Below are positions 45,295 to 57,846 of a stretch of 64,000 bases of DNA, piece after piece. The number at the start of each line of letters is the position of its first letter. The first letter of the stretch is position 1. The translations under genes were made by a program, and so were the position numbers. The DNA lies in contig NZ_VAUV01000002.1 in the NCBI RefSeq assembly GCF_005780165.1, positions 248,001 through 312,000 of the forward strand, in the 5' to 3' direction. Source of the stretch: Phragmitibacter flavus (lineage in GTDB: Bacteria; Verrucomicrobiota; Verrucomicrobiia; Verrucomicrobiales; Verrucomicrobiaceae). The notes under the pieces are model-generated. The model saw only the letters and a program-made list of their open reading frames with translations. It searched no databases and was not told where the DNA came from.

Positions 45295-46941
45295 TTAGCG
45301 GCGAGAGCGTGGGACGGGGTCGCCGCCTTTGTTGTCGCGGCCAAAAATGAGGGAGTTGGGTTTGTCGTCGATGGTGTTGGAGAGGGTTTTGAAGGCGCGG
45401 AGGGCGGCGCGGAGTTCGTCCAAGGTGCGATGAAGGTCGCCCTGGATGGCACCGCTGGGGCCGAGGCTGGAGACGGAGGCGCGCACTTGATTGAGGGTGG
45501 CGTCGAGTTCAGCCGTGAGGTTTTGGGTTTCTTCGCGGGAGAGAAGTTTATTGATTTCAGCGAGGGCGGCGCGGGCGTCGGTGGTGGTGGCGGTGAGGGA
45601 TTCGGCAGTGTCACCAAATTTGTTGAGGGTGTCCTCAATGGGCAGGGCCTCGATCTTGGTGAGGATGGCGTTGACCTTGGCTTCGAGCTGCACGAGGCCG
45701 GAGGAGTGGGTGGGGAAAACTTCGTATTCGCCGACTTTGCCCATGGTGGCGGGGGGCGCGTCTTCAACAAAGTCGATGTCGATATAGAGGGCTCCGGTAA
45801 GAAGCGAGGCGGTGCCGAGCTTGGCTCGCAGGCCTTGCGAGACGGCTTCTGCAAGATCGATTTTTTCGTTGGCGGCCTTTTGGGAGGGATTGCGCAGAAC
45901 GCTGGGATCGACTTCAATGAGGACGGGGACGCGTTTTTCGCCGGTAGGGGCGTAGTCGAAGGAGATGTCGACGACTCGGCCGAGGGGGATGCCGCGGAAT
46001 TCGACGGGGGCGTCGTTTTGCAGGCCGCGAACGGATTGATCGAAGAAGAGCAGGCAGCGGCGGTCGGCGACGAAGGTCGCTTTGCGGGTGGCTTCTTCAT
46101 CGGGGAAGAGGGTGAAGACGGTGCCGTTGGTGGCTTCTTTTCCGACGACGGCGCCTGGCGGGACGGCGAAGGTAGCTCCGCCCGAAAGCATGGCCTGGAA
46201 GGAGGGGGTGCGGACACGGAATCCGTCCGCTCCGGCGCTGATGTCGACGCCGCTGCTGTTCCAGAAAGCGGTGCCTTCGTGGACGAGTTCGGCGTAGGGG
46301 TCACCGATGAAAATGTCAAAATTGGTGCGGCGCGATTTGATGTCGAAGGAGCGTTGTTCGACACGGCCGACTTCGAAGCCCTTGTAATAGATGGGGGAGC
46401 CGACGTTGAGGGAGCCGGGATTGTCGGCTTCAAGGACGAGTCGAAGGCCGGGAACACTGGAGCTGGTGATGGGAGGTTTTTCGAGGCCGTCGAAATGGTG
46501 GACGTCTTCGCGACCGTCGCCGGGGTCGAGTTCGATGTAAGCGCCGGTGATGATGGTGCCGAGGCCGGAGACGTCGGCGGCGCTGATGCGCGGTTTCACG
46601 ACCCAGAAGCGACTGCCTTCGCGGAGCAGTTCCTCGGAGTCAGGTTGCATGCGGATGGCGACGATGACGGACTGGAGGTCTTTGGCGAGGGTGACGGCTT
46701 CGACCATGCCGATGCTGACGGAACGGGCGCGGACATCGGTTTTGCCGCTGACGATGCTGTCGGCGGTTTCGAATCGGACATACACCAGGGGCCCAAGGCT
46801 GCGGTAGTGTTCCCAGACGAGCCAGGCACCGAGAGCGAGGGCAACGAAGGGGACGATCCAGACAGTGCTCCAGCGCCGGCTTCTTTTGATCGTGGCGCGA
46901 GGTTCGGAGGTGGTGGTGGAATTGGAAGCGGGGTCACTCAT
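45295..46941 (-). CDS. pqiB: PqiB-like protein with three MCE (MlaD) domains
   Basis: 548 aa. One N-terminal membrane helix (TVWIVPFVALALGAWLVW) is followed by three MCE domains: LGPLVYVRFETADSIVSGKT, LEADNPGSLNVGSPIYYKGF and LLFFDQSVRGLQNDAPVEFRG. A coiled-coil tail follows (about 420-525). PqiB hexamers form a lipid-transport needle through the periplasm. The start overlaps the preceding pqiA gene by 8 bp. Confidence 0.94.
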   Translation of the reverse strand: MSDPASNSTTTSEPRATIKRSRRWSTVWIVPFVALALGAWLVWEHYRSLGPLVYVRFETADSIVSGKTDVRARSVSIGMVEAVTLAKDLQSVIVAIRMQPDSEELLREGSRFWVVKPRISAADVSGLGTIITGAYIELDPGDGREDVHHFDGLEKPPITSSSVPGLRLVLEADNPGSLNVGSPIYYKGFEVGRVEQRSFDIKSRRTNFDIFIGDPYAELVHEGTAFWNSSGVDISAGADGFRVRTPSFQAMLSGGATFAVPPGAVVGKEATNGTVFTLFPDEEATRKATFVADRRCLLFFDQSVRGLQNDAPVEFRGIPLGRVVDISFDYAPTGEKRVPVLIEVDPSVLRNPSQKAANEKIDLAEAVSQGLRAKLGTASLLTGALYIDIDFVEDAPPATMGKVGEYEVFPTHSSGLVQLEAKVNAILTKIEALPIEDTLNKFGDTAESLTATTTDARAALAEINKLLSREETQNLTAELDATLNQVRASVSSLGPSGAIQGDLHRTLDELRAALRAFKTLSNTIDDKPNSLIFGRDNKGGDPVPRSRR

Positions 46942-47608
46942 TTGTCGGAAGGGAAGGAAGAGATGAGGAAGGGTTCGGTTTTTCGTGGTGCCGGTCCCAG
47001 ATGAGTCTTGGATCGAAGCTCATGGCGGAGAACATGGTGAGGATGACGACGGCGGAGAAGCACAGGGCGGCGGGGCCCGGGGTAATGGTCATGATGGCGC
47101 CGAGTTGAACGAGGCAAACGAGGATGGCGACGACAAAGACATCGACCATGGACCAGCGTCCAAGGAGTTCGGTGATGTGATAAAGGCGGGAGAGGGATCG
47201 TGGGGCGGTCTGGGAGCGACCGCGGGCGGCGAGGCAGAGCCAGACGAGGGCGATGACTTTAAGGAGGGGGATGAGGACGCTGGCGGTGAAGATGACGATG
47301 GCGACGGGATAGGACTTCATTTCCCAAAAGCGCACAACGCCGGAGAGGATGGTGTTTTTTTCGGCCCCACCGATGCCTTGCACGGTCATGATCGGCATGG
47401 TGTTGGCGGGAATGTAAAGGATGACGGCGGCGATGAGAAAGGCCCAGGTGCGTTCAAGGCTCTGGGGCTTGCGCAGGTGGAGGGGGGTGTCGCAGCGGGG
47501 GCAATGGCCAACCGTCACGGGGCTTACCTTGCCGCAGACGTGGCAGGAGGCGAGGCCTTGGGAGGCGGCACTGATGGGGGATGGGGAGGGATTCGGTTCT
47601 GGAGTCAT
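46934..47608 (-). CDS. PqiA-type membrane protein, second half
   Basis: 224 aa from the ATG at 47608. It starts with a zinc ribbon (CHVCGKVSPVTVGHCPRC) and has four membrane helices. The pattern FLIAAVILYIPANTMPIMTV is the PqiA domain signature. E. coli PqiA (about 417 aa) has two such domains in one chain; here they are split, and this one corresponds to the C-terminal half. The start lies within an ATGA overlap of the previous gene's stop, 5 bp after a ten-C homopolymer in the coding strand. Confidence 0.9.
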   Translation of the reverse strand: MTPEPNPSPSPISAASQGLASCHVCGKVSPVTVGHCPRCDTPLHLRKPQSLERTWAFLIAAVILYIPANTMPIMTVQGIGGAEKNTILSGVVRFWEMKSYPVAIVIFTASVLIPLLKVIALVWLCLAARGRSQTAPRSLSRLYHITELLGRWSMVDVFVVAILVCLVQLGAIMTITPGPAALCFSAVVILTMFSAMSFDPRLIWDRHHEKPNPSSSLPSLPTNE

Positions 47609-48297
47609 GCGCGGGGGGGGGGTGCTGGCTCGGGAATTTCTGCGGGGGGAAGGCGGCTGATTTCGAGTCGGTCCCAAAGTTCGAGCCTGTCGATCCCTCC
47701 AATGGCGGCGGCGCTGCAGAGGACGAGGCCGATGAGGGACCAGAGTCCGGTGCCGAATTCGAGGTCGGCGAGTTTGCCGAGTTTGAGGAGACTGACCACC
47801 AACCCGAGCAGGAAGACTTCGAGCATGCTCCAAGGTTCCATTTTTTGGAACCAGCGGGCGGCGACGATGGCACCTGGGAGGGAGATGCCGTAACGGAGTG
47901 GAGCGGCAACGTAGAGGAGCCCGCCAACGAGGATGAGCGGGGCGATGATGGTGAAAAAGACGACGGCGGCGGCGAGCAGGGGGTTGTTTTGTTGGGCGAG
48001 TTCGGAGGCTGACTGGACGAGGGTGAGCCGGGTGGTGACGTTGCCGCTGGTCATGATGAGGAATGGGAACGCGTGAGAGATGCCCATGAAGAACAGGGCG
48101 GCAAGGGAGTAGCCGGTGGCGTGGGCGAGGGAGCGTGGGCGGTTGCGGAACAGGCGTTCGCCGCAGGAGCAGCAGTAGGCACCATCGCCGTCGCGCAGGC
48201 GTGGGGCGGTTTGCAGGGTGTCGCAAAAGTGACAGGCCACCTGCATCGGCTCGGAGCTGATTTGTGGCCACGAGAGCCAGGGGTGGTGTCGGTTCAT
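47605..48297 (-). CDS. PqiA-type membrane protein, first half
   Basis: 230 aa. Begins with a zinc ribbon CHFCDTLQTAPRLRDGDGAYCCSC and has four membrane helices, with SLAALFFMGISHAFPFLIMT as the domain signature. It corresponds to the N-terminal domain of E. coli PqiA. The C-terminal residues are Pro-rich because a C10 tract (plus-strand G10 at 47613-47622) encodes them. It heads the leftward pqi operon. Confidence 0.88.
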   Translation of the reverse strand: MNRHHPWLSWPQISSEPMQVACHFCDTLQTAPRLRDGDGAYCCSCGERLFRNRPRSLAHATGYSLAALFFMGISHAFPFLIMTSGNVTTRLTLVQSASELAQQNNPLLAAAVVFFTIIAPLILVGGLLYVAAPLRYGISLPGAIVAARWFQKMEPWSMLEVFLLGLVVSLLKLGKLADLEFGTGLWSLIGLVLCSAAAIGGIDRLELWDRLEISRLPPAEIPEPAPPPRA

Positions 48298-53117: not shown

Positions 53118-53504
53118 ATGAGCGAGGCACTAAAAAAATACATTCCAGGGGTTTGCAACATCGGTCGGACGGAGATGCGCAAACGGAGACGGGTGGGGTT
53201 GATGGCGCTGGTGGCGACCGGATTGTTCTGGTGGGGCGCGGAGTGGCTGGAGGTGCTGCCGAAGTGGCGTGTGTTGTTGTTTTTCCCGGCCACCTTGGCG
53301 GCGGCGGGGTTGTTGCAATGGTTGATGGGCTTCTGTGCCGCGTTTGGTCTGAGCGGGGTGTTTAAGATGGGCACGGATGAGGACAAGACGGATACGGTGG
53401 CGCAGGCGGAGTTTCGGGCGAAAGACCGGCACAAGGCTTGGGTGATCATCGTGGCTTCGGCGTTGGTCGGGGTTTTGACGGCTTATGCGGCCTATGTGGT
53501 TTGA
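53118..53504 (+). CDS. Small membrane protein upstream of the DAC-domain gene (YgaP/DUF2892-like)
   Basis: 128 aa. The start has CNIGRTEMRKRRRVGLM, then helices LMALVATGLFWWGAEW, LLFFPATLAAAGLLQWLMGF and IIVASALVGVLTAYAAYVV. The 'C-N-I-G...R' start and the GFCAAFGL segment resemble the DUF2892/YgaP membrane domain. A hydrophilic region DEDKTDTVAQAEFRAKDRHK separates helices 2 and 3. The gap to the DAC gene is only 14 bp, so the two are very probably co-transcribed. Confidence 0.8.
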   Translation: MSEALKKYIPGVCNIGRTEMRKRRRVGLMALVATGLFWWGAEWLEVLPKWRVLLFFPATLAAAGLLQWLMGFCAAFGLSGVFKMGTDEDKTDTVAQAEFRAKDRHKAWVIIVASALVGVLTAYAAYVV

Positions 53505-53518
53505 CGGAGTGATTGAAA

Positions 53519-54820
53519 ATGATGAACCCGCCATTCGGAGCCGAGACAGATCGTTTTTCTGAGGCGGATGCAAGGATGCGCGGACTGGTGGTGGAACTGG
53601 AGGGGTTGCTGGCGGGCAGGGCGGATTCGCCGACAAAGGCGCAGTTGATGGATCTTTGTGATTTGTTGTATGCGTCGAGTTTGTTGAAGGAGGAGGGACG
53701 GGCGGTGCGGGCCAGGCTGGTGGTGGCCCCGCCGGATGCGTTTGCGGTGGAGGATGGTCCGCCGGAGGGGGTTCATGCGATCCGCTTTGCCGTGCCGCAT
53801 CCACTGACGTCGAATGAGGTGAAGCGGTTGAGTCCGGCGGCGAGTTTTTATCATTCGGTGATTGCGGTGTGGCCGGACAAGGGTCGGGGTTTTCGGGTGT
53901 GGGGGATTTTAAATACGGGTCCACGTTGGATGAATCTGGTGGCCGGTGGTCGGAAGGTGGCGGGGGCAGATTTGGCTTATCCGATCATTCATGTGCGTGA
54001 TCCGGGGTGGCTGTTGTTTTATCAGGACTACCGGCTGTTGGCGGAGTGGCGGGGAAGGGAGTTTCACGGGCCGCGCATGGATGTGTTTCAGTCGAAGCTG
54101 CTGAGCGAACGGTTTGCAGATTTGCGTCGGCAGTTGGTGGAGGAATTGAGGGATGATTGTCTACCGGAAACGTTGTCGCTGGAGGCGTATGCGGATCTGG
54201 CGCATTTGATTGCGTTGCAGTTCGTGAGGAGGTCGATCAACCTGGTGCGCACCAGTGGGCATGGGGGTAGTCTGGTGTTGATTCCCGATGACGAAGAAGG
54301 GCGTGTGGCGGCGGAGAAGTGGATCGATTGCAAATATTTGCTTAAGGAGGATGGGGCGGGTCAGCGGTTCCGGCAGTTGTGGCAGGCGATCATTCGTCGG
54401 GTGGGACAGTTGAGTCCGGCGGGAGCGTCGGTGGAGCAGGCGTGGCAGGTGTTTCGGTTGAGCCGGGATGAAGAACTGGATCAGCTGGAGGAGTCGTTTT
54501 TTGAGCTGGCACGGTTGTTGTCGGATTTCATGATGGTGGATGGGGCTTTGGTGCTCGATCACCGGCTCGGATTGGTGGGATTTGGCGGGGAGATTCGAGT
54601 CGATCGCACGGTGCTGTATGTGGAACAGGCGCATGATCTCGAGGGTGGAAGTGTGTCGCGCTGGGATGTGCAGGGAGATGGGACGCGGCATCGGGCGGTT
54701 TACCGACTTTGTTCGGTGGAGCCGTCGGTGATTGGTTTTGTGGTGTCGCAGGACAGTCAGGTGCGGATGATCGCGAATGTGTATGACTCCGTGATGTTCT
54801 GGCCGCACACAGTGATATGA
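53519..54820 (+). CDS. Putative diadenylate cyclase (DisA_N/DAC domain) with an N-terminal sensor-like domain
   Basis: 433 aa from the ATG at 53519 (GGAG nine bases upstream). Residues below are numbered from this start. The C-terminal half has features of the DAC fold: SLVLIPDDEEG (about 251-261), DGA at 341-343 (VDGALVLDH), then RHR at 390-392 in GTRHRAVYRL, followed by VIGFVVSQDSQVRMIANV. DGA and RHR are the two catalytic motifs of c-di-AMP synthases. The first 240 residues lack membrane segments and look like the DACNV-type sensor domains predicted next to DAC domains. It would make c-di-AMP from two ATP. The unusual spacing between motifs (47 aa) means activity must be tested. It follows a small membrane protein gene by 14 bp. 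Confidence 0.75.
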   Translation: MMNPPFGAETDRFSEADARMRGLVVELEGLLAGRADSPTKAQLMDLCDLLYASSLLKEEGRAVRARLVVAPPDAFAVEDGPPEGVHAIRFAVPHPLTSNEVKRLSPAASFYHSVIAVWPDKGRGFRVWGILNTGPRWMNLVAGGRKVAGADLAYPIIHVRDPGWLLFYQDYRLLAEWRGREFHGPRMDVFQSKLLSERFADLRRQLVEELRDDCLPETLSLEAYADLAHLIALQFVRRSINLVRTSGHGGSLVLIPDDEEGRVAAEKWIDCKYLLKEDGAGQRFRQLWQAIIRRVGQLSPAGASVEQAWQVFRLSRDEELDQLEESFFELARLLSDFMMVDGALVLDHRLGLVGFGGEIRVDRTVLYVEQAHDLEGGSVSRWDVQGDGTRHRAVYRLCSVEPSVIGFVVSQDSQVRMIANVYDSVMFWPHTVI

Positions 54821-56041: not shown

Positions 56042-56398
56042 TTAGGCTGACTTGAACCCTTCGAATTTCATGACTTTCTGAACCTCGTGTTTTAGAGAAG
56101 GGAGGTGCTGCTCCATGATGCGCCAGACAATGTCCCAGTTCACATCGAAGTAATCGTGAACCAGGATGTGGCGTGTCTTTTCCACCTTGTTCCATGGAAC
56201 CTGAGGATGGCGATCCTTAAGTTCAGTGCTGAGTTTGAAGATGGCTTCGCCAAGAATCTCGATGTGTTTCAGCACGAAGAAACGGAGGAGTTCATCGGAG
56301 TCGAATGCGGGACGGTCCTTGACGGGATGTCGTTCGATGGCTTCGATGGCCTCCAGTATATCCTGAAGCCTCGACGAATCGCCTCGCGCGGGCTTCAT
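56042..56398 (-). CDS. hepT: HepT-type toxin (DUF86)
   Basis: 118 aa from the ATG at 56398. The HepT motif R-x4-H-x-Y is RHILVHDY at residues 76-83. The all-helical HEPN fold with FVLKHIEILGEAIFKLS is typical. HepT is a tRNA-cleaving RNase that is silenced when its partner MntA adds AMP to the tyrosine of this motif (Tyr83 here). The start overlaps the mntA stop by 4 bp. Confidence 0.9.
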   Translation of the reverse strand: MKPARGDSSRLQDILEAIEAIERHPVKDRPAFDSDELLRFFVLKHIEILGEAIFKLSTELKDRHPQVPWNKVEKTRHILVHDYFDVNWDIVWRIMEQHLPSLKHEVQKVMKFEGFKSA

Positions 56399-56688
56399 GG
56401 TTCGACGGCCGCCTCCTCGATTGCAAGTCGCAGTCGTTCTCGCATCCAAGGATGCTCAGTCAGAACATCGACAGGGCAGCCGAGAATGGTCTGCAACCGA
56501 TCCTTTAGGTCAACGAGATCAAAGACATCCATTTCGGGATGCATTTTTACGATGAAATCAACATCGCTGTGATCGTCATCATCGCCTCGCGCCACGGAGC
56601 CAAACAGTCGAATTCGCTCTGCCCCGAGGCTGCGGGCAGCTTCGAGAATGGCTTCGCGATGAAGTCGCACGAGTTCGCGTTTCGACAT
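56395..56688 (-). CDS. mntA: MntA-type antitoxin nucleotidyltransferase
   Basis: 97 aa from the ATG at 56688. The minimal nucleotidyltransferase signature G-S-x10-D-x-D is complete: G30, S31, D42, D44 in LFGSVARGDDDDHSDVDFIV. It would AMPylate HepT using ATP. It lies first, overlapping hepT by 4 bp, the usual order for this module. A hairpin lies upstream at 56732-56750. Confidence 0.9.
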   Translation of the reverse strand: MSKRELVRLHREAILEAARSLGAERIRLFGSVARGDDDDHSDVDFIVKMHPEMDVFDLVDLKDRLQTILGCPVDVLTEHPWMRERLRLAIEEAAVEP

Positions 56689-56731
56689 GCGTTCAAGTTT
56701 AACACAATCATCCCAAAGTTTCCATTTCAAA

Positions 56732-56838: not shown

Positions 56839-57846
56839 TCATCGGATGTGGAAGCGCTGGGTCTTGATTTTGCCGGCGGCGAGGGTGACGCGGTTCCAGG
56901 CGCTTTGGTCGTTCATGGGGACCCAGCGGCGCTCTTCTTTGCGGTAGTGCCAGTCCTTGTCGTTTTGATAAAGGAAGGCGGTGGATTTGCCTTCGATGAT
57001 GTTGAGGATCTCGTGGTCGTGGTAGTGCTCCTGGTCGTAGTCGGTGATGGCTTGCTGGCCCATCTCGGAATAGATTTCGTTGAGGTTGACGAGGAGATCG
57101 TTGAGGTCGGAGTCGAGATCGCTGACGTTGAGGCCGATGCGCTGGGCTTCGCGCAGCATGATGGGATACCCGTGGCTGGGGTAGGCGGAGTTGAGGTGTT
57201 TGCTGATTTTCTCGCGCGCCTTGGCGTTGTCGAGGTGGTAGGAGAGGATCTCTTCGCAAATCTTGATGGAGAGGGAGCTGGCGCGGTCGATGGCTCCGAA
57301 GACAAGAGGGTGGATGTGGTTGTAGAGGCTGGGGTAGGGGTTGGCTTCACCGTTGCCGCGCGATTCTTTCCAGAGGTGGAGGACGCGATTGAGCTCGTCC
57401 TGGGACACGGCGACGGCGTGGTTGGTGCGGTCGACCGGAGACAGGGCGTGGGTAAGGGAGGTGTCGACGGCGGTGAGGTAGGCAAGGGGGCCCATCTTGA
57501 TTTCGTCGGCACCGATGGCCATCATGGTGGCGGCGGAGGCGGCTTCGAGCGGGATGAGGGCGGTGATTTTACCGGCGTATTGGCGCAGCAGGTTGACGAT
57601 GCGCAGGGCGGCCTGGCCGTTGCCGCCGCTGGATTTGATGAAGAGATAGAGGTGTTCGCGTTTGCCGAGCCCTTTGAGGAGGTCGAAGAAGGCGGCGACG
57701 TCGTTGTGGCAGACGGAGCCGTTGCCGGAGGACCAGTAGGCGATGAAGGGGGCGCCGAGTTTTTTCTCCAACTGGGCAATGATCTTCTGCGTTTGGGGAG
57801 TAAGGATGGGGGGCTTGTTGATGCGAACGGCTCGTTTCTTTTCCAT
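56839..57846 (-). CDS. SDH-type (serine dehydrogenase proteinase) ClpP/SppA-fold protein
   Basis: 335 aa without a signal peptide. The ClpP-like fold contains LYLFIKSSGGNGQAALRIVNLL and, after it, ITALIPLEAASAATMMAIGADEIKMG, in which the Ser before Ala-Ala-Thr is a likely nucleophile, as in SppA. The family is PF01972. The C-terminal part after about residue 240 has a distinct helical domain ending in WHYRKEERRWVPM. Its substrate is unknown; it could be a cytoplasmic membrane-associated protease. Confidence 0.82.
   Translation of the reverse strand: MEKKRAVRINKPPILTPQTQKIIAQLEKKLGAPFIAYWSSGNGSVCHNDVAAFFDLLKGLGKREHLYLFIKSSGGNGQAALRIVNLLRQYAGKITALIPLEAASAATMMAIGADEIKMGPLAYLTAVDTSLTHALSPVDRTNHAVAVSQDELNRVLHLWKESRGNGEANPYPSLYNHIHPLVFGAIDRASSLSIKICEEILSYHLDNAKAREKISKHLNSAYPSHGYPIMLREAQRIGLNVSDLDSDLNDLLVNLNEIYSEMGQQAITDYDQEHYHDHEILNIIEGKSTAFLYQNDKDWHYRKEERRWVPMNDQSAWNRVTLAAGKIKTQRFHIR

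Follow-up and report, generated by a model that had tools for sequence, protein, structure and literature searches.

Within the 5.9 Mb genome of Phragmitibacter flavus, the stretch of 64,000 nucleotides analysed here (referred to throughout as the window) encodes a DACNV-DAC protein that is quite probably a stand-alone and soluble diadenylate cyclase, one in which a predicted C-terminal diadenylate cyclase (DAC) domain would be gated by the N-terminal domain and which would supply the cell with c-di-AMP under the control of a signal, in addition to CdaA. The architecture as such is already named, both in Pfam and in NCBI annotation (as ‘putative sensor domain DACNV-containing protein’), and the protein is a further member of this apparently unstudied group. 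DACNV is said to have been defined in a comparative paper by Burroughs and colleagues in 2015; a full-text search of the open-licence literature found no paper naming it. What the present analysis adds concerns the N-terminal domain, the predicted structure of which, taken alone, matches DACs best and yet carries none of their catalytic motifs; it is this possible pseudo-DAC nature of DACNV that may deserve the attention of specialists.

Architecture of the protein

Both open reading frames described in the first-pass annotation were found where it had placed them, with 401 bp from start to start and 14 bases between the stop codon of the first and the ATG of the second (Table 1); an in-frame alternative start for the second gene, TTG, lies at 53513. 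Judged by the absence of any 19-residue stretch above 1.27 on the hydrophobicity scale, the protein is soluble. The Pfam profile for DACNV (PF21751, described as a ‘probable sensor domain’) matches with a score of 88.9 bits, where the cut-off is 27 (E 2.5e-25), so that the earlier description of a soluble, DACNV-like N-terminal sensor domain stands, save that its length is about 190 residues (approximately 1–190) and not 240; fold matches of the model put the start of the DAC domain near residue 190–225, upstream of the DGA motif. Similarly, the long spacing noted between DGA and RHR is real, at 46 residues rather than the 47 first counted, but it is a trait of the whole family (22/22 proteins) and not unusual there.

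Table 1 Positions of the DACNV-DAC gene, its domains and motifs, and the upstream neighbour. Positions are those of the window.
Feature	Position	Strand	Remarks
DACNV-DAC gene	53519..54820	+	433 aa, ATG start; aligned with 20 Verrucomicrobiota relatives
N-terminal domain, residues 1–192	53519..54094	+	Pfam DACNV at 35–131; predicted seven-stranded DAC-like fold, without DGA/RHR
C-terminal DAC domain, about residues 191–433	54089..54817	+	from predicted model and fold matches
HGG, residues 248–250	54260..54268	+	opens GALI-like strand (250–253, G-S-L-V); invariant 22/22
DGA motif, residues 341–343	54539..54547	+	D and G invariant 22/22; third residue A (20), V (1) or C (1)
G-T-R-H-R motif, residues 388–392	54680..54694	+	invariant 22/22
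S-Q-D, residues 410–412, where (V/I)SEE would stand	54746..54754	+	invariant 22/22
128-aa protein, three hydrophobic segments	53118..53504	+	neighbour; judged to lie outside any module

As had been claimed, this layout (DACNV before DAC, no CdaA_N, nothing after DAC) is unlike those of CdaA and DisA. CdaA/DacA shares with the window protein the DAC fold, the DGA and the RHR (the model gives Z of about 10–12 to solved chains), but it has a membrane domain, CdaA_N (PF19293), that is not found in the window protein, and a glmM-like neighbour, which the window gene is without. Measured between invariant columns, DACNV-DAC proteins also have about 49 more residues than CdaA from the glycine of GALI/HGG to the D of DGA (91 vs 42), and a further 17–18 more from that D to the R. 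DisA, alike in its DAC fold and giving the top row in VIA, differs in having a DNA-binding part after the DAC domain (PMC7288161), whereas the window chain ends with DAC, the matches running to residue 432–433. The B. cereus entry 2fb5 is likewise a DAC with an N-terminal extension; we take it to be CdaS, and its extension to be short and helical and presumably not a DACNV domain. Closest in kind are the annotated DACNV-DAC proteins (PF21751), in which domain order and motifs are as here; the 402-aa protein of Hymenobacter monticola is so annotated and, at about 31% identity, shows no essential difference.

The C-terminal domain

An AlphaFold prediction for a single chain (13 sequences; mean pLDDT 82.6, pTM 0.71) was compared with solved structures in two ways. 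Foldseek returned diadenylate cyclases in 50 of the 50 matches listed for the whole model, counting as one of these the best row, 2fb5, the title of which is silent on activity but which is listed as a diadenylate cyclase, DacB from B. cereus (PMC7288161). In VIA, 40 DAC entries matched within residues 186–433 at Z 12.8–10.2, headed by M. tuberculosis DisA (133 residues aligned, 2.6 Å), while the best other entry, an unrelated enzyme, reached 5.5. The first-pass annotation had made its proposal depend on a structural match to DAC, and the predicted model provides one.

At the level of sequence the similarity is more distant. PF02457 gives 12 bits for the window protein (13.8 for the C-terminal half alone) against a cut-off of 27, which is a profile threshold and not a biological feature; among 13 DACNV family members it gives E ≤ 1 for 11, the best being 0.0061. 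One genome, G537, carries two divergent DACNV-DAC copies (L060 and L066), each about 33–34% identical to the window protein. The L066 copy matches PF02457 with E 1.7e-5 and 26 bits (marked ‘over cut-off’, at 27, when in-frame neighbours are included), the other copy with 20.2 bits, below the cut-off, and the H. monticola DACNV protein with E 1.6e-5 and 24.9 bits, just below 27. Since the window protein itself lies below the cut-off, which one relative reaches, its C-terminal half is here termed a divergent DAC-fold domain. A family profile compared with canonical DACs gave a match over 38 columns only (E 4.4e-4, probability 33.5). Searches of PDB sequences gave no match with the protein and two chance-level matches with the family profile; NCBIfam gave no match to the protein, and PHROGs one, at E 0.051.

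The motif pair cannot carry the assignment by itself. A six-frame search of the window finds the pattern DG[AGVC]...G.RHR once, and residue shuffles of the window's 279 open segments (of at least 100 aa) produced 13 matches to it in 200 rounds, so that the presence of DGA and RHR is suggestive, and it is fold and conservation that count. The C-terminal domain is accordingly assigned a DAC fold because of the model matches, the PF02457 matches in distant relatives and the invariance of the motif residues, to which we now turn.

Conservation of the active site

Conservation was assessed over 22 aligned proteins, comprising 21 from Verrucomicrobiota (the window protein included) and that of H. 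monticola (Bacteroidota). DACNV was shown in 13 of the 21, the other 8 having been found by the DACNV profile, and the C-terminal motifs are present in all 21; left out were L008, where a contig end cuts the gene (used for the N-domain alignment only), L025, which is broken, and L005 and L016, which are the window itself. Identity to the window protein falls to 32–33% within the phylum and is about 31% for the Hymenobacter protein. The DGA and RHR reported earlier in the C-terminal part are indeed there, and D341, G342, G388, T389, R390, H391, R392, S410, Q411, D412 and the HGG at 248–250 are identical in all 22.

In Listeria CdaA, ATP is bound through the side chains of Leu31, Asp71, Thr102, Arg103, His104, Ser122 and Glu124 (PMC7288161). 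Matching by motif, D71, T102, R103, H104 and S122 correspond to the identical, invariant D341, T389, R390, H391 and S410, and the metal-holding E124 to D412, an acidic swap; L31, paired by eye, corresponds to L252, a position that is hydrophobic in 22/22 proteins although the residue varies. In terms of the published DAC motifs, DGAhh, GxRHRxA, GALI and (V/I)SEE (PMC7288161), the first two read DGALV and GTRHRAV here (the final position being V, A or T across the family, not just A), while the places of the last two hold GSLV (again a pairing made by eye) and VSQD, with the serine and the acidic third residue retained.

The distance from the D of DGA to the R is 49 residues in 18 of the 22 DACNV proteins and 50 in the other 4, as against 32 in 13 of 15 canonical verrucomicrobial DACs, the other two rows being unparsed owing to an earlier intervening RHR. 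The difference reflects a 17-residue insertion preceding RHR, where the model shows two added strands (367–371 and 379–383). In CdaA the stretch between DGA and RHR holds the main-chain adenine contact Leu88 (PMC7288161), and one might therefore argue, on the grounds that the base-contacting loop has been rebuilt, that the protein is a DAC-type cyclase making some other dinucleotide. The insertion does fall in just this stretch, but the Leu31 position of the GALI-like strand is kept hydrophobic throughout the family, and a different product seems improbable.

The N-terminal domain

A list of fold matches can be taken up entirely by one domain of a protein, and for that reason residues 1–192 were also folded alone (16 sequences), giving a model with pLDDT 85.0 and pTM 0.82. 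It has seven strands of at least 5 residues (65–69, 86–95, 113–120, 124–132, 155–161, 164–169 and 172–178) and a short one at 181–183; DACs have a seven-stranded sheet (PMC7288161). The top two Foldseek rows are both M. tuberculosis DisA, with E 7.5e-3 (probability 0.94) and 2.4e-2, while the other 48 matches listed are at 0.55 or worse, and the TM-score is low, at 0.35. A second look with VIA gave 39 DAC entries at Z 9.2–5.4 with rmsd 3.6–4.3 Å, the best row being 2fb5 (142 residues aligned across residues 1–179, 4.2 Å); since a Z of 7 to 8 is the typical best for models without a clear match, values of 7–9 are not high in themselves, and as the 39 entries represent one fold they count as one observation, so that what speaks is the gap to other folds, the best of which reached 3.5.

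The catalytic motifs DGA and RHR are absent from this domain, and a PF02457 search of the N-terminal half gave no match. Profile comparisons, for which the underlying alignments are thin (about 2.7–3.8 effective sequences), showed no sequence similarity of the domain to canonical DACs (E 0.74), and between the two halves of the protein gave E 0.042 over 12 columns, with a score of 19.43 that was exceeded by one of 60 column shuffles (19.72). Nor were the conserved residues significantly gathered in the loops equivalent to the ATP pocket, which were set by hand from the strands of the model (p 0.095, 0.28, 0.056 and 0.36 in four versions), and the idea of a ligand site there is to that extent so far without positive support. 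Given the predicted fold, we nevertheless lean towards the view that DACNV is a degenerate DAC, which would make the protein an internal pseudo-dimer in which a dead DAC is fused to a live one.

Distribution and other c-di-AMP genes

DACNV is patchily distributed: among 288 genomes searched for the phylum 8 have it, and among 384 for the class 15, and it is absent from all seven other genomes of the same family among those listed. Six named relatives in which a DACNV-DAC protein was found are all Verrucomicrobiota (the lineage was confirmed directly for one). No match to the protein was obtained among phages and viral contigs, and those among plasmids were confined to two Hymenobacter records, in one of which, from Hymenobacter volaticus (L025:7905-9147), the annotation splits the DACNV gene into two shorter ORFs, and the gene aligns in three pieces and looks broken; a phage or plasmid origin was rejected on these grounds.

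The P. flavus genome also encodes an ordinary CdaA (CdaA_N followed by DAC) beside a phosphoglucomutase-family gene, an arrangement (cdaA-glmM) that is known from other bacteria, as well as a 7TMR-HD protein of the PgpH kind, a type known for the degradation of c-di-AMP. This CdaA (L067:2296-3099, minus strand, contig C27) has DGG and GLRHR, where 15 of 15 aligned canonical relatives have the T of GTRHR. A first look at the genome for the c-di-AMP riboswitch RF00379 gave 159 candidates, and no such riboswitch was found among the 150 of them that were scored, despite the two putative diadenylate cyclases.

Across the 15 genomes with DACNV, a 7TMR-HD protein is present in all and a separate strong PF02457 match in 14. 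Since P. flavus has its own canonical CdaA, and 14 of the 15 carriers a separate DAC, the DACNV-DAC protein is predicted most likely to be an accessory rather than the housekeeping synthase. The exception, G254 (L002, L018), combines a DACNV-DAC gene with a 7TMR-HD protein but gives no PF02457 match, and on gene content the DACNV protein may be its sole diadenylate cyclase; this case proves little, however, because 7TMR-HD proteins are present in 4 of the 8 genomes without PF02457 (G254 among them), and the G254 assembly is a draft, 97% complete.

The presence of another DAC in 14 of 15 carriers could also be taken to mean that the DACNV-DAC protein is a receptor, its C-terminal domain keeping fold and pocket so as to bind ATP or c-di-AMP without catalysis, and the SQD that replaces SEE in 22/22 proteins and the enlarged loop before RHR would fit such a role. 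In a receptor, some of the catalytic residues should have been lost, so that the invariance of the catalytic D, G, T, R, H and R, down to 32–33% identity and across two phyla, counts against it, as does the existence in G254 of a DACNV-DAC gene without any PF02457 match; on the whole we regard a receptor as unlikely.

Proposed mechanism

Returning to the enzyme, the DAC fold together with the retained ribose-, phosphate- and metal-binding residues means that the C-terminal domain most likely joins two molecules of ATP into c-di-AMP; activity, product, regulation and ligand are what we infer. Synthesis of c-di-AMP needs two DAC domains paired face to face (PMC7288161), and in the present case two C-terminal domains (about 191–433) would meet in this way. 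The non-catalytic, DAC-like N-terminal domain would most likely gate the reaction, through a small ligand that it binds or else by taking up the face needed by a second catalytic domain. Inhibition of CdaA/DacA by GlmM works by blocking the pairing face. In the DACNV-DAC protein the dead DAC half might analogously lie face to face with the live half, keeping it inactive until a signal arrives; alternatively, the former ATP site of the dead half might serve as a pocket for the product or for a different nucleotide, the live half being released on a signal. In either case a cell already equipped with the membrane CdaA and a 7TMR-HD protein would have another supply of c-di-AMP, one under the control of a signal. 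Inhibition of CdaA/DacA by bound GlmM is reported in PMC8573169 and PMC6368335.

If active, the DACNV-DAC proteins would constitute an additional class, soluble and carrying its own regulator, beyond the bacteria usually taken as models for c-di-AMP. Should this regulator be a dead DAC, one could investigate what DACNV senses by testing a former ATP site, and the proteins would be the DAC counterpart of pseudoenzyme-regulated cyclases and a test case for signal switching.

Genomic neighbourhood

The first-pass annotation had further proposed that the DACNV-DAC protein and the 128-aa protein encoded upstream (hydrophobic segments at about residues 26–44, 52–80 and 106–128) form a membrane-tethered, two-gene module. 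The closeness of the genes is what speaks for this; GC3 does not discriminate, since the value for the membrane ORF is 0.77 and that for an overlapping antisense ORF 0.79. A search of 288 genomes of the phylum with the 128-aa protein matched two, one the window's own and the other weak (E 5.1e-4). No relative was found by tblastn at 13 other DACNV loci (where the flank was about 1.4 kb or less for 7 of the 13, L002–L009, longer stretches being used in the later neighbour comparisons), and at none of 22 other DACNV loci (a set that does not include L023) is the DACNV gene immediately preceded, on its own strand, by a comparable small membrane gene.

More generally, when the open frames of 16 stretches, one of them from the window, were compared all against all, the window had nothing in common with the others except frames on or across the DACNV gene; among the members listed for the three largest clusters, all are on or overlap that gene. 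Some of the relatives do have neighbours in common among themselves, at four loci at most. Same-strand multi-pass membrane genes lie within 60 bases of the DACNV gene at 2 of the 22 loci, namely an ABC permease-type gene at L010 and one encoding 706 aa with a thioesterase-like domain at L071, while at L022 an opposite-strand ORF with four hydrophobic stretches adjoins it; none of these was found to resemble the 128-aa protein. In view of the lack of a conserved neighbour, the DACNV-DAC gene seems to stand by itself, and the membrane gene beside it is, on comparative grounds, most likely there by chance. The proposed partnership was given up, its conservation being missing at all other DACNV loci examined, and a membrane-tethered module is very unlikely.

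At L026 a patatin-Omp85 gene lies upstream of the DACNV gene. That the protein might belong to a phage-defence system of the CBASS type, together with an effector, was suggested by the patatin-family gene just upstream of the H. monticola DACNV gene, which weakly matches the phospholipase effectors of PADLOC (about 55 residues, E 2.2e-7). The patatin is fused to an Omp85 domain, a link to CBASS through it being rejected for that reason, no effector recurs at other DACNV loci, and a PADLOC search found nothing with the window protein and its neighbour or with the DACNV protein of H. monticola; such a role is hardly to be expected.

Elsewhere in the window, on the minus strand, 46934-48297 holds two tandem PqiA-domain genes, and 56042-56730 overlapping genes for a HepT-like ribonuclease and a nucleotidyltransferase-domain protein, which we take to be a HEPN-MNT toxin-antitoxin-like pair. 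Beside this pair, at 56839-57846 on the same strand, lies a gene whose product has a serine proteinase domain of the ClpP-like SDH type (PF01972, E 8.7e-12).
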